Assembly: GCF_900187885.1 (NCBI RefSeq) | Contig: NZ_FYEK01000031.1 | Span: 1-32,664, forward strand | Length of the DNA: 32,664 nucleotides | Reading direction: 5' to 3' | From: Thermoflexus hugenholtzii JAD2 | GTDB lineage: Bacteria > Chloroflexota > Anaerolineae > Thermoflexales > Thermoflexaceae | In this document: piece after piece, positions 16,579 through 32,664 of the stretch | Layout: every line of letters starts with the position of its first letter | Position numbering within the stretch: the stretch's first letter is position 1 | Notes under the pieces: model-generated | The model's input: only the letters and a program-made list of their open reading frames with translations | The model's database searches: none | What the model was told of the DNA's origin: nothing | Program-made: the position numbers and the translations under genes

Positions 16579-16607
16579 TTGAAGGATTTTACCTCAAAGC
16601 CGAGAAT
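16579..16607 (+). promoter_or_regulatory. Possible promoter of the DUF71-glycosyltransferase-folate operon
   Basis: TTGAAG at 16579-16584 and GAGAAT at 16602-16607 are spaced by 17 bases, each 4/6 to consensus, and lie about 45 bases before ATG 16651. It overlaps the divergent candidate for fabG, so the two promoters might compete. Confidence 0.4.
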
Positions 16608-16615
16608 GAGGATAA
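16587..16615 (-). promoter_or_regulatory. Possible promoter of the fabG operon
   Basis: Minus-strand TAAAAT (16592-16587) is the best -10 in the divergent intergenic region; a weak TTATCC lies 17 bases upstream of it. The distance to the fabG start fits a short leader. Confidence 0.4.
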
Positions 16616-16650
16616 GGCGGTTGATCCTCTTCACCGGCAGGGAGGCATCG

Positions 16651-17346
16651 ATGATCGCGCTGGCCTGGAGCGGTGGAAAAGACAGCATGATGGCCCTGCA
16701 CGCCTTGCGGCGGCGGGGCGAGCGCGTGGCCGTGCTGCTGGTCACCCTGAACGAGGCCTTCGATCGCGTCAGCATGCACGGGGTGCGCCGCTCCCTGATC
16801 CACGCCCAGGCCGCGGCCCTGGGCCTTCCCCTCTATGAGGTGTGGCTCCCCCATCCATGCCCCAACGAGATCTACGAGCAACGGATGGGCGAGGCGGTCC
16901 GGGCGCTCATGGATCAGGGGATCCGCCGCTTCGCCTTCGGCGACCTGTTCCTGGAGGAGATCCGCGCCTACCGGCTCCGCCACCTCCTCCCGCTCGGCGC
17001 CGAGGTCCTGTTCCCGATCTGGGGCGAGCCCACCCATGACCTGGTGCGCCGCTTCCTCGCCCTGGGGTTCCGGGCCCTCACCGTCTGCGTGGACGGGAAC
17101 CGGCTGGGCCCAGCCTTCCTGGGGCGGACCCTGGATCTGGGCTTCCTGGCCGACCTTCCCCCGGAGGTCGATCCCGCGGGGGAGAACGGGGAGTTCCATA
17201 CGTTCGTGTATGACGGCCCGGGCTTCCGGGAGCCGGTGGCCTTCACCCGGGGCGAGCAGGTCTATCGGGACGGCTTCTGGTTTCAGGATCTGGTTCCGGT
17301 GACGGTGCCGGCCCTTCCGGTCCTTCCCCGGAAGGGGAGCCTCTGA
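16651..17346 (+). CDS. DUF71 / ATP_bind_4 family ATPase (diphthine-ammonia ligase-like)
   Basis: A 231-residue adenine-nucleotide alpha-hydrolase. The PP-loop S-G-G-K-D-S is at residues 7-12, and family segments F-G-D-L-F-L-E-E-I-R and G-E-N-G-E-F-H-T-F-V (near residues 187-196) are the DUF71 (COG2102) signature. In eukaryotes and archaea this family includes diphthine-ammonia ligase (Dph6), but bacteria lack diphthamide, so the bacterial member must act on something else. The substrate is unknown. ATG 16651 has GGGAGG six bases upstream and yields the PP-loop close to the N-terminus, as usual. It heads a plus-strand operon with a glycosyltransferase, a PTPS-like gene and folKP; the context does not reveal its role. 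Confidence 0.85.
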   Translation: MIALAWSGGKDSMMALHALRRRGERVAVLLVTLNEAFDRVSMHGVRRSLIHAQAAALGLPLYEVWLPHPCPNEIYEQRMGEAVRALMDQGIRRFAFGDLFLEEIRAYRLRHLLPLGAEVLFPIWGEPTHDLVRRFLALGFRALTVCVDGNRLGPAFLGRTLDLGFLADLPPEVDPAGENGEFHTFVYDGPGFREPVAFTRGEQVYRDGFWFQDLVPVTVPALPVLPRKGSL

Positions 17347-23832: not shown

Positions 23833-24762
23833 ATGGAAAAGGGTCTGCAGATCGATCTGGAGGGGATACGGGAGGTGATCCGGCAGCTGCGGGCGTGGGC
23901 CCCCGTCTGGGAGGAGACCTTCCGGCGGGCCCAGCGGGTGGGGATCGCCCTGGTGCGGACGGTCCGCGCGGTCCCCGGGCGGCGGTTCGAGGAGGAGACA
24001 GAGGGCCCCAAGGGACGTCTGAGCCAGGCGGCGGAGCGGGTGCGGATCCTGGCCGACACCATGGAGCAGGCCCTCCTCCACCTGGAGGCGGCCTTCCTGC
24101 AGGCGGCCCAGATGGTGGAGCGCGCGGGGGAAAGCGTTGGGGAGGGGGCGCTCCCCACGGCCGCCCTCTCGGCGTCCTTCGAGGAGGCCTACGCCTTCGT
24201 CCGCCGATGGGAAGGCGGATACGTCCACGACCCCGATGATCCCGGCGGCGCCACGAACATGGGGATCACCCAGGGCACCTATGATGCCTGGCGCCGCGAG
24301 AAGGGGTTACCTCCTCAGGACGTCCGCGCCCTCACGCCGGAGGAGGCCCGGGCCATTTACCTGGAGAGATACTGGGCGTCATCCGGGGCAGCCACCATCC
24401 CTTCTCCAGCCCTGGCCATGATCCACTTCGACACGGCGGTGAACATGGGGGTGGGGCGCGCCCGGGAGTTCCTCCAGCGGATCCAGGAGGGGGGTCGTTC
24501 CAGCCCTCGGGAGATGGTGGAAGCCTATCTGGATCTGCGGTTGAACCGCTACCTGGAGATCGCCGATCAGTACCCTTCCCAGCGGAAGTTCCTCGCGGGT
24601 TGGCTGAACCGGCTGCGGGATCTGGCCGAGGCCGCTACGGGGGAACCGGAGTTCGCGGCCTCCTTTGAGCGGAAGGTGGAGCAGGCCCTGGAGGCCCGGG
24701 CCGCCGAAGATCCCGCTTATGCGACGATCCTGGAGCGCTTCCGCAGGATGTGGAGGAGGTAA
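23833..24762 (+). CDS. GH108 muramidase with an N-terminal WXG100-like helical domain
   Basis: A 309-residue protein. Residues 118-309 form a phage-type muramidase of glycoside hydrolase family 108: W-E-G-G-Y at 126-130 with the probable catalytic Glu127, followed by D-P-D-D-P-G-G-A-T-N-M-G-I-T-Q, and then a helical part that in the family is a peptidoglycan-binding domain. Residues 1-105 are all-helical, with leucine-rich stretches around 9-50 and 64-97 that resemble WXG100/ESX-type or phage tape-measure helices; no W-x-G turn is present. There is no signal peptide or lipobox. It precedes a TPR lipoprotein by three bases. It could be an endolysin of prophage origin or a secreted effector; the N-terminal domain call is tentative. 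Confidence 0.8.
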   Translation: MEKGLQIDLEGIREVIRQLRAWAPVWEETFRRAQRVGIALVRTVRAVPGRRFEEETEGPKGRLSQAAERVRILADTMEQALLHLEAAFLQAAQMVERAGESVGEGALPTAALSASFEEAYAFVRRWEGGYVHDPDDPGGATNMGITQGTYDAWRREKGLPPQDVRALTPEEARAIYLERYWASSGAATIPSPALAMIHFDTAVNMGVGRAREFLQRIQEGGRSSPREMVEAYLDLRLNRYLEIADQYPSQRKFLAGWLNRLRDLAEAATGEPEFAASFERKVEQALEARAAEDPAYATILERFRRMWRR

Positions 24763-30084: not shown

Positions 30085-30155
30085 CCTTGCGTGAGACCTC
30101 GGGAGAGGTCCACTCTCCTATCCTCCGCTCAGGGATTCCCCTCCGAGGACAGAAC

Positions 30156-30830
30156 ATGCGCTGGGAGACCCTGGATGGCATGATGGCAGGGGATTATCGG
30201 ATCCGGGTGCGAGAGGAGGGCCGGAGCGTCACAGCCGGCCAGCGCTATGTGGCGTTTTACCTGGAGCGCGAGGGCCTCCTTTCGGAGCGCCCCATCCTGC
30301 GGGGGCTTTCCGCCGGTCCGCGTCCGCAGCCGATCCCCGGCTGGCTCGATGGCTTCTTTCAGAACCCGGTTCGCTTCCAGGGCGTGCCCGTGGCGCTTCC
30401 GGAGCGGGTGGTGCGAGCGTTCTTCCGACGCATCGGCGAGTTGATCCCGCCGGGAGGGTGGTTGGGGCTGGCCTACGAGACGTTCGGCGAGAGCCAGCCG
30501 ATCCATCGGGAGACCGAGCAGGCCCTCCGGCTGGGGATCCCTCCGATCCTGACCCCGCTGGGGATGTGCTTGTTCTATGCCGGGTGCGCCTTCCCCATCC
30601 GCGACTGGTCCATCGCGGAGGGGTGGCGGGAGGGCCCGCGCAAGCTGCAGGGGTTCAAGCCCCGGGATCGGGAGCGCTATCTGGATGTGGTCGATGCGCT
30701 GTGGGAAGAGATCCGGGCTTTTCTGCGCCGCACCGAGGGATCCTCCCGGCCCGAGTTCGCGGCCGCCCGACGCCGCGTCGAGGATCTCCTCTCCCTTTGG
30801 AGCTCCCGCGGGGCCGACGAAGCGCTCTGA
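30156..30830 (+). CDS. Protein of unknown function, possibly DUF1122
   Basis: A 224-residue soluble protein. Segments G-W-L-G-L-A-Y-E-T-F-G-E-S-Q, L-G-I-P-P-I-L-T-P-L-G and I-A-E-G-W-R-E-G-P-R-K-L-Q-G-F-K-P suggest the DUF1122 family found in archaea and some Chloroflexota, but this is from memory of the family and is tentative. No signal peptide or membrane segment is seen. Two Cys residues lie close together in M-C-L-F-Y-A-G-C. ATG 30156 follows a weak GAGGA; a TTG at 30087 in the same frame would add 23 residues. It follows the plsY-like gene by about 70 bases and converges with the serine-hydrolase-like gene. Confidence 0.7.
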   Translation: MRWETLDGMMAGDYRIRVREEGRSVTAGQRYVAFYLEREGLLSERPILRGLSAGPRPQPIPGWLDGFFQNPVRFQGVPVALPERVVRAFFRRIGELIPPGGWLGLAYETFGESQPIHRETEQALRLGIPPILTPLGMCLFYAGCAFPIRDWSIAEGWREGPRKLQGFKPRDRERYLDVVDALWEEIRAFLRRTEGSSRPEFAAARRRVEDLLSLWSSRGADEAL

Positions 30831-30851: not shown

Positions 30852-32297
30852 TTACTCCGAGGGCGTCCCCAGGAAGAACTGGGATGTGATCCGGGAGAGA
30901 TCCCCCATCATCCGTACGGCCTGTTCCCATTCCATCAGGATGGGGCGGTGCAGGAAGACCACCAACACATACTCGGCGCGCCCGGCGAGGACGATCCCTG
31001 CGTCCGCCCGGGTTTCGTTCGTCCAGCCAGGCCGACGGGCGAAGGCGATGCCGGGGGGGAGGCCGGCGGCCAGCAGGGTGGGCTGACCCTGGGGATCCAG
31101 CAGGCGATTCTGGGTCATCGCCTCCAGGATGAACTGGCATTCCCCGGGTTGAACGGCGCCCTCGGAGACGAGGGGGAGCGGTCCGCCCTCCTGAGTGCAT
31201 TGTCGGAGCATCTCCAGGAGCACCCCCAGGTCCTCCGGGGTGGTCTGCTGGCGCGGATCGGGATGGGTGGGAAGCTCCGGCCGGCTGTTGGCTGGGGTCA
31301 CCACTGCAGGCGGGGTGCCCGGCTGGTCGAAGGGCCACGCCATGAAGGAGTTCACCAGCCCCAGCTCCCGCAGGAGCGCGGTCACCCGCTCCGCCCCTTT
31401 CGCTGGGTCACCTTCCCCGAGGTCTGTTAGGAGCGTGTCCACGGCTGGCAGGGCGGTTTCATCGGTTAGCATCCGGAACACTGTCTGGCGGCGCGCCTCG
31501 TCGTGGATGAGGTCCCGGGCCCGGGCGACCGCGAGGGCCACGGGCAGGCGCATCACCCCCACTCCGGAGAACGGCAGGTCCCCGTTGTGCATCCAGGTCT
31601 CCCCCCGACGCAGGTCTTTGATGAAGATCCCGGCGGTGCCGTCGAAGGCGCTCAGGTAAGCCTCGAAGAACCGACCCAGGGCGGAGAGGGAAAGGGGCGG
31701 GGCGGGCTTCTCGTCCACCACCAGGGCGACCTCGCGGGGGGCCGCCTGGGCCAGGGCGGCCTGGAGGCGCTCCGCGGAGCGGCTGATGTTCAGCACGTGG
31801 CCCGGGCGGCCTGGCGTGAAGGCGAAGCGCTCCAGGTCCGGCTGGGGCTCCACCGGTGGCTCATCGAAGCGGCGGGCGACCTCCAGCAGCCACAGGCGGA
31901 TCTTCTCCGGGGAGGCCTGGATCGCCACCGGGAGATCCCGGGGTGGGGGCGGCTGGCGGAAGAGGAATTGCAGGAAAGCGCCCGGGCGCTGGCGCTCGGA
32001 TAAGGCCTGCTGCAGCAGCTCCCGGCTTTTACCCCGATCGAGCCGCGCCTCCACATCCGCGGGGTCCAGCATCAGGGTGTGATCCTGATACTGCACGCGC
32101 AGCGGAGCGGCCAGGGCGCGCTCCACCGCGTCCAGCGCCTCCTCGATGGAGCGTCCGCCCACAGCCAGCCCGGCCACGGTCCAGGTCCGGGGGATCCGCT
32201 GCAGCTCCTGCTGGAAGAGGGCGAACTGCCAGATCAGGAAGCCCACCAGCAGGAGGGCGACCCCGCGGCTGAGCCATCGGTTCCACGCGCGCGGCAT
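30852..32297 (-). CDS. Serine-hydrolase (class A beta-lactamase) fold protein lacking the SxxK motif
   Basis: A 481-residue protein with an N-terminal membrane segment (residues 13-29), then a VanW/PG_binding_4-like region (about 40-210), and a C-terminal domain with the fold of class A beta-lactamase-related enzymes (about 215-475). At the expected S-x-x-K site the sequence is F-S-G-V-G-V-M-R-L-P-V-A: position 247 is Gly and 250 Arg, so neither nucleophile nor general base is present. The S-D-N motif region reads L-P-A-V-D-T-L-L and is also changed. The fold-typical L-G-E-G-D, L-L-R-E-L-G-L and N-E-T-R-A-D-A-G-I-V segments remain. It is therefore probably a non-catalytic envelope protein. 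AGGAGGGG precedes ATG 32297. Confidence 0.85.
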   Translation of the reverse strand: MPRAWNRWLSRGVALLLVGFLIWQFALFQQELQRIPRTWTVAGLAVGGRSIEEALDAVERALAAPLRVQYQDHTLMLDPADVEARLDRGKSRELLQQALSERQRPGAFLQFLFRQPPPPRDLPVAIQASPEKIRLWLLEVARRFDEPPVEPQPDLERFAFTPGRPGHVLNISRSAERLQAALAQAAPREVALVVDEKPAPPLSLSALGRFFEAYLSAFDGTAGIFIKDLRRGETWMHNGDLPFSGVGVMRLPVALAVARARDLIHDEARRQTVFRMLTDETALPAVDTLLTDLGEGDPAKGAERVTALLRELGLVNSFMAWPFDQPGTPPAVVTPANSRPELPTHPDPRQQTTPEDLGVLLEMLRQCTQEGGPLPLVSEGAVQPGECQFILEAMTQNRLLDPQGQPTLLAAGLPPGIAFARRPGWTNETRADAGIVLAGRAEYVLVVFLHRPILMEWEQAVRMMGDLSRITSQFFLGTPSE

Positions 32298-32375
32298 CGA
32301 TGACCCCTCCTCTCTATTGAGGTCTGAGCACCCACCCATTTAGGACTTACGTTGTTTCCTGGGTATTCCGGTCGT

Positions 32376-32399
32376 GGCCTTGGGTTTTAGCCCGAGGCC
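32376..32399 (-). ncRNA. Hairpin over the tnpB stop codon, possible omega-RNA element
   Basis: GGCCTTGGG and CCCGAGGCC form a 9-bp stem with one G-T pair around a TTTTAG loop, reading over the tnpB stop. TnpB guide RNAs usually derive from the 3' end of the gene and the right end of the element, so this is a candidate part of one. Neither the RNA ends nor the element boundary can be fixed from this copy. Confidence 0.35.
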
Positions 32400-32664
32400 A
32401 GAGGACCGGCCACCGGGGTTGCCCACCGACCCCTGCCTCGAAGGCCCAAGCCCCCGAGGAATTCCACCCCCCTGCGGGCGATGTTCACCGCCGCCGCCGC
32501 GTGACGGCTCATCCTCACCCCGCAAGGGCACGTCAGGACGTGTCCCCTTAGCCTTTCACCCACCTTGCCGCATACCGGACACGCCCGGGACGTGTTCTGC
32601 GGATCCACAAAAATCACCGGAACCCCGTAAAACCTCGCCTTCTGAACCAGAAGGCGATGGAAAG
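32387..32664 (-). CDS. tnpB: TnpB-family (IS200/IS605 OrfB) protein, 3' part only
   Basis: The frame is open to the window end, so the 5' part is missing; 92 residues are visible. Features are H-R-L-L-V-Q-K-A, then V-I-F-V-D-P-Q-N-T-S-R-A-C-P-V-C-G, a zinc ribbon (C-P-V-C ... C-P-C-G), and an end rich in Gly and Arg. In TnpB the RuvC-III motif after the ribbon is D-R-D-x-N-A-A; here it is S-R-H-A-A-A-A-V-N-I, so the catalytic Asp is His. TnpB is an RNA-guided nuclease of IS200/IS605 elements; this copy may be inactive. A hairpin at 32376-32399 spans the stop codon and could be part of a guide RNA. The tnpA gene is not in view. Confidence 0.82.
   Translation of the reverse strand, partial: FHRLLVQKARFYGVPVIFVDPQNTSRACPVCGKVGERLRGHVLTCPCGVRMSRHAAAAVNIARRGVEFLGGLGLRGRGRWATPVAGPLASG

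Follow-up and report, generated by a model that had tools for sequence, protein, structure and literature searches.

A putative maintained pseudoenzyme of the class A beta-lactamase/PBP-A fold in Thermoflexus and the loss of the catalytic serine among its Anaerolineae relatives

We analyzed the gene at 30852-32297 of a 32,664-nucleotide stretch of DNA, referred to below as the window, and found that its product lacks the catalytic residues of the serine-hydrolase fold to which it belongs. Sequence and structure model together strongly indicate that this Thermoflexus protein is a maintained pseudoenzyme, since the genus has the replacements fixed, purifying selection acts on the gene and its product keeps the fold. 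The best explanation, to which we assign a probability of about 0.5, is that it derives from a PBP-A-like peptidoglycan DD-peptidase and binds the wall without cutting it. The initial annotation had already read the protein as a maintained pseudoenzyme; its observation is right and understated. The features of the gene, all on the minus strand, are as follows.

30852..32297 (-): coding sequence of the putative pseudoenzyme, 481 aa plus stop; open frame, Beta-lactamase2 PF13354 match with E 5.4e-13, kept in 9/9 genomes of the genus
32306..32311 (-): ribosome-binding site AGGAGG, 8 nt 5' of the ATG, from the sequence
32205..32276 (-): hydrophobic N-terminal helix, residues 8-31, from the sequence; AlphaFold helix 2-31
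31698..32201 (-): PG_binding_4-like domain, residues 33-200; PF12229 E 0.0095 (sub-threshold) and its own model
30867..31694 (-): class A beta-lactamase/PBP-A fold domain, residues 202-477, from AlphaFold and structure matches
31548..31559 (-): G247-V-M-R250 replacing S-x-x-K at the start of active-site helix 247-260, from alignments and the model
31449..31457 (-): degenerate S-x-N site, residues 281-283, Asn replaced by Leu283, from the family alignment
31287..31298 (-): T334-P-A-N337, retained motif of the omega-loop region, kept in active and dead members
31197..31199 (-): Cys367, paired with Cys387
31137..31139 (-): Cys387, paired with Cys367
31026..31034 (-): R422-P-G424 replacing KHG (the KTG box), from the family alignment

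Catalytic-site replacements and their conservation in Thermoflexus

An uninterrupted frame runs from 32297 to 30852 (30855-32297 without the stop), and the intact frame behind a good ribosome site that the initial annotation described was found as claimed. Canonical members of the family carry S-x-x-K, S-x-N and K-H-G. The codons of residues 247-250, GGG GTG ATG CGC, give G-V-M-R, which in alignments falls opposite S-T-V-K in the Sphaerobacter enzyme of known structure (4ewf) and opposite S-x-x-K in 124 homologues, confirming the reported Gly247 and Arg250 at this site. The reported change in the S-D-N loop was likewise borne out, position 283 being Leu in the window protein and Asn in 100% of 120 canonical homologues; these were selected for Ser, Lys and Lys, and the Asn at 283 is thus the sole independent observation among them. 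A further replacement, absent from the initial annotation, was detected in the KTG box, where the lysine is Arg422. Four catalytic residues are therefore lost: the nucleophilic Ser, the Asn of SxN, and the two active-site lysines (each replaced by Arg).

We examined whether these residues are conserved in orthologues, a check that had been proposed for Gly and Arg. Gly247, Arg250, Leu283 and Arg422 were invariant in 9/9 Thermoflexus genomes, whose orthologues are 78-99% identical to the window protein. Since the nine separately assembled genomes agree and their codons vary synonymously at Gly247 and Arg422, a sequencing error is excluded. The median pairwise dN/dS was 0.13 for the whole gene and 0.117 for the C-terminal catalytic-fold domain. 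Of the columns conserved in the 120 canonical members, Thermoflexus has kept, among others, T334-P-A-N337, Q351-T-T353, Cys367, Cys387 and Asp432. The loss of catalytic residues is also what a decaying gene on its way to loss would present, but the full-length frame is intact in all nine genomes, dN/dS is about 0.13 and the gene order is conserved in the genus, so that decay is already contradicted and barely credible. It is also improbable that the protein is an enzyme with a displaced nucleophile, such as Ser244, or with some other chemistry. Ser244 is invariant in the nine genus members and the pocket is still charged; however, active homologues with Ser247 have Ala, Ser or Thr at position 244, and neither the general base Lys nor the SxN Asn is left. 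Because Ser occurs at 244 in active homologues as well, it is not new to the dead clade.

The gene belongs to no wall operon and stands by itself, converging with DUF1122-PlsY-ThiF-FKBP genes; this location indicates no partner for the protein. When gene neighbourhoods were compared beyond the genus, no neighbour indicating a partner was recognised across families. The DUF1122 protein is encoded at window 30087-30830 (+) and is convergent with the pseudoenzyme gene in most Thermoflexus genomes read. Directly upstream of the latter, at window 32387-32662 (-), lies the C-terminal piece of a TnpB-like protein (Cas12f1-like_TNB, E 8.7e-15) that runs off the contig end. Elsewhere in the window we noted a GH108 lysozyme-like protein with a PG_binding_3 domain at 23833-24762 (+), usually a phage-type lysin but here on a chromosomal contig, and a bacterial Diphthami_syn_2 (diphthamide synthase-like) protein at 16579-17346 (+), adjoining a glycosyltransferase and an HPPK-DHPS fusion.

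An active paralogue, which the initial annotation suggested looking for, was not found: neither a protein search (E<=10) nor PF13354 matches over the cut-off identified a second family member in the source genome. A third PF13354 match, C27, was weak (E 0.1) and lies over a Transpeptidase domain; it was rejected as a candidate. The congener G004, assembled in a single contig with 98% completeness, also has one family member. The source genome encodes six transpeptidase-type PBP domains and two YkuD domains, which means that it synthesises and cross-links peptidoglycan. None of the six genomes sampled, whether or not they carry the dead form, yielded an S11 DD-carboxypeptidase (PF00768), so this absence does not explain the loss.

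Domain architecture, predicted fold and known relatives

The AlphaFold model of the whole protein, built from an alignment of 33 proteins, had a mean pLDDT of 90.2, and the window protein scored 49.2 bits against Beta-lactamase2 PF13354 (Pfam cut-off 22). The C-terminal domain matched LRA-5 with Z 28.8 and PBP-A (2j7v) with Z 27.2, rmsd 2.4 and 25% identity over 231 residues; class A beta-lactamases also matched (Z 27-29 overall). These values agree with the earlier statement that the rest of the fold is maintained. In the model, helix 247-260 starts at Gly247, the position from which the catalytic Ser starts the same helix in class A and PBP-A enzymes. Cys367 and Cys387, which probably form a disulfide, were both present in 195/197 readable family members, live and dead alike.

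The hydrophobic N-terminal helix is likely a membrane anchor. It is followed by the part that the initial annotation called VanW/PG_binding-like, where PG_binding-like seems right and VanW does not: VanW (PF04294) was absent from the Pfam matches of the window protein up to E 10. Modelled alone, this domain reached pLDDT 88.7 and matched domain I of the E. faecium L,D-transpeptidase (1zat) with Z 8.7, unrelated entries giving at most 4.4, a result that favors PG_binding_4 over VanW. The PG_binding_4 score was 16.5 bits in the window protein and 22.2 in the G004 orthologue (cut-off 22.1), and PG_binding_4 was detected at E<=0.01 in 21/31 family members. The fold of residues 33-200 is likely that of 1zat, although the sequence match is weak, and in Thermoflexus this part is fused to a serine-hydrolase fold and not to a YkuD domain.

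Among known systems, PBP-A of Thermosynechococcus (2j7v) shares the fold, and the family resembles it in lacking the omega motif of class A enzymes: the Glu166 motif (ExxLN) was found in 0/143 Ser-bearing family rows (duplicates included) and not in the omega-loop region of the window protein. PBP-A has the catalytic serine S61 (PMC11189452), whereas the Thermoflexus protein has Ser, Asn and both Lys replaced and carries in addition the N-terminal anchor and the PG_binding_4-like domain. Class A beta-lactamases and the LRA-5 precursor (8eo5/8eo7) have the fold and a PF13354 match over the cut-off in common with it, but 0/3 class A catalytic motifs are intact in the Thermoflexus protein. Cpe/Orf12 of Streptomyces clavuligerus likewise combines an additional N-terminal domain with a class A-like domain, and its pocket holds a ligand non-covalently (PMC6478378); it differs in being cytoplasmic and in keeping S-x-x-K, SDN and the KTG-box Lys. 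Also comparable are homologues in Anaerolineae (e.g. L010 and L012) with the same architecture and length and 37-39% identity, which have S-x-x-K, SxN and KHG and, judged by these residues, are presumably active.

Loss of the serine across the family

The family profile matched 276/396 genomes and 145/222 genera of the class Anaerolineae. We compared 168 distinct near-full-length members, drawn from many genera and not independent of one another. Ser was kept (S-x-x-K) in 124 and absent in 44, with 26 Gly, 16 Asp, 1 Asn and 1 His at the site. The KTG-box residue was Arg in 42 of the 44 non-Ser members and Lys in 120 of the 124 Ser members. This co-occurrence is descriptive and not proven correlated evolution, since an independent-pairs test of Ser loss against the KTG Lys-to-Arg change did not reach significance (5 usable pairs, median p 0.25).

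After the motif columns were taken out, a tree of 107 rows required a minimum of 8 changes of state between Ser and non-Ser, and a single clade of all non-Ser rows was rejected (p-AU 1.4e-5). The initial annotation had regarded S-x-x-K in orthologues as the evidence that would speak against it. S-x-x-K does occur in homologues from other families of the class, but Thermoflexus (f1) and two sister families (f4 and f21) have Gly throughout, and in a tree of 37 rows these three Gly-bearing families split from all others with 95/95 support. Ser being present in class A enzymes and in PBP-A, the simplest reading is that the common ancestor of the three lost it once, long ago, and by the alignments the Thermoflexus state is a derived loss, not a misalignment. 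Further cases of Ser loss were found in f34, one genus of f31, f35, and members of f50 and f54. Relatives lost these residues independently, and dead versions of the enzyme therefore seem to arise repeatedly and to be retained. Separately, we observed frames of ~1,020-1,080 aa a few kb downstream of an S-x-x-K family member (L213 10239-13379, L216 10326-13349 and L212 8469-11468), in which repeated PG_binding_4-like stretches are followed by a matching C-terminal part.

In f35, two adjacent same-strand copies were found in 17 genomes of 12 genera (L078, L088, L092, L094, L096-L099, L101, L105, L108, L112 and L123-L127; L022 and L123 are the same genome), with gaps mostly of 2-61 nt and of 155 and 193 nt in two. 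The upstream copy was dead in 16/17 pairs, with Asp (15) or His (1) at the Ser site and Arg in the KTG box, while the downstream copy was always intact (S-x-x-K, S-[S/G]-N and K-H-G). In the 17th pair (L112), the upstream copy has kept S-x-x-K and its KTG box is already Arg. The upstream copies nest in the 37-row tree as L089 (Ser, Lys), then L112 (Ser, Arg), then the Asp forms, an order which suggests that Lys-to-Arg preceded the loss of Ser in this lineage. The arrangement also suggests that the dead and intact copies are a working pair.

The f35 pairs bear on the main rival explanation, a pure protein-protein scaffold whose pocket is dead for ligands too and which would use the surface of its fold to regulate or position PBPs, in the manner of enzyme/pseudoenzyme pairs. 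We regard it as possible but less likely than not. A dead copy just upstream of an intact one in 16/17 pairs and the degraded SxN loop of Thermoflexus are in its favor; however, Thermoflexus has no intact copy for pairing, pocket-side T334-N337 and D432 are conserved, and Lys gave way to Arg and not to random replacements.

Possible role at the cell wall

For the reading of a former DD-peptidase that binds the wall without cutting it, we counted the conserved pocket-side columns that are kept, the low dN/dS, the confident fold, the peptidoglycan-making genome and the KTG Lys-to-Arg change that goes with Ser loss in 42 of the 44 dead members. Against it we counted the loss of the SxN loop, a contributor to ligand contacts, the sub-cut-off PG_binding_4 match in the window protein, and a gene that stands alone without a partner. 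PBP-A is a DD-carboxy- and endopeptidase (PMC11189452). Ser70Gly mutants of class A enzymes bind beta-lactams, and crystal structures show them with both the intact and the hydrolysed compounds (3huo, 3hvf); CTX-M-14 K234R retained substrate carboxylate contacts and ampicillin turnover (PMC11843585).

The protein would be anchored in the membrane by its N-terminal helix, with the PG_binding_4-like module and the class A/PBP-A-fold domain outside. Both Lys-to-Arg changes would retain the positive charge of the pocket, and a pocket without Ser but with Arg could hold a carboxylate-bearing stem peptide without acylation. Given such a pocket and the PG_binding_4-like module on a membrane anchor, the pseudoenzyme would serve as a non-cutting tether of the wall or as a partner steering active PBPs. 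A cell-wall binding role is what we infer for it, and the peptidoglycan-binding scaffold or sensor proposed in the initial annotation is a plausible hypothesis.

More tentatively still, this may be a class-wide Chloroflexota wall-enzyme family that repeatedly becomes nucleophile-less, Arg-pocket peptidoglycan-binding proteins, forming a dead/live operon pair in some lineages and the dead form alone in others such as Thermoflexus; these would make up a class of non-covalent penicillin-fold receptors, a doubtful generalisation at present. A limited literature search, with subscription journals outside its coverage, found no published description of a class A/PBP-A-type protein from Chloroflexota that is catalytically dead. 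Penicillin-fold proteins have been studied as enzymes or drug targets. In this natural, long-maintained family the nucleophile has disappeared on several occasions; the same Lys-to-Arg change mostly went with it, and in one lineage an intact twin lies next to the dead copy. The family offers a test of whether the penicillin fold also serves as a non-covalent receptor for the wall or as a regulator of its active relatives.
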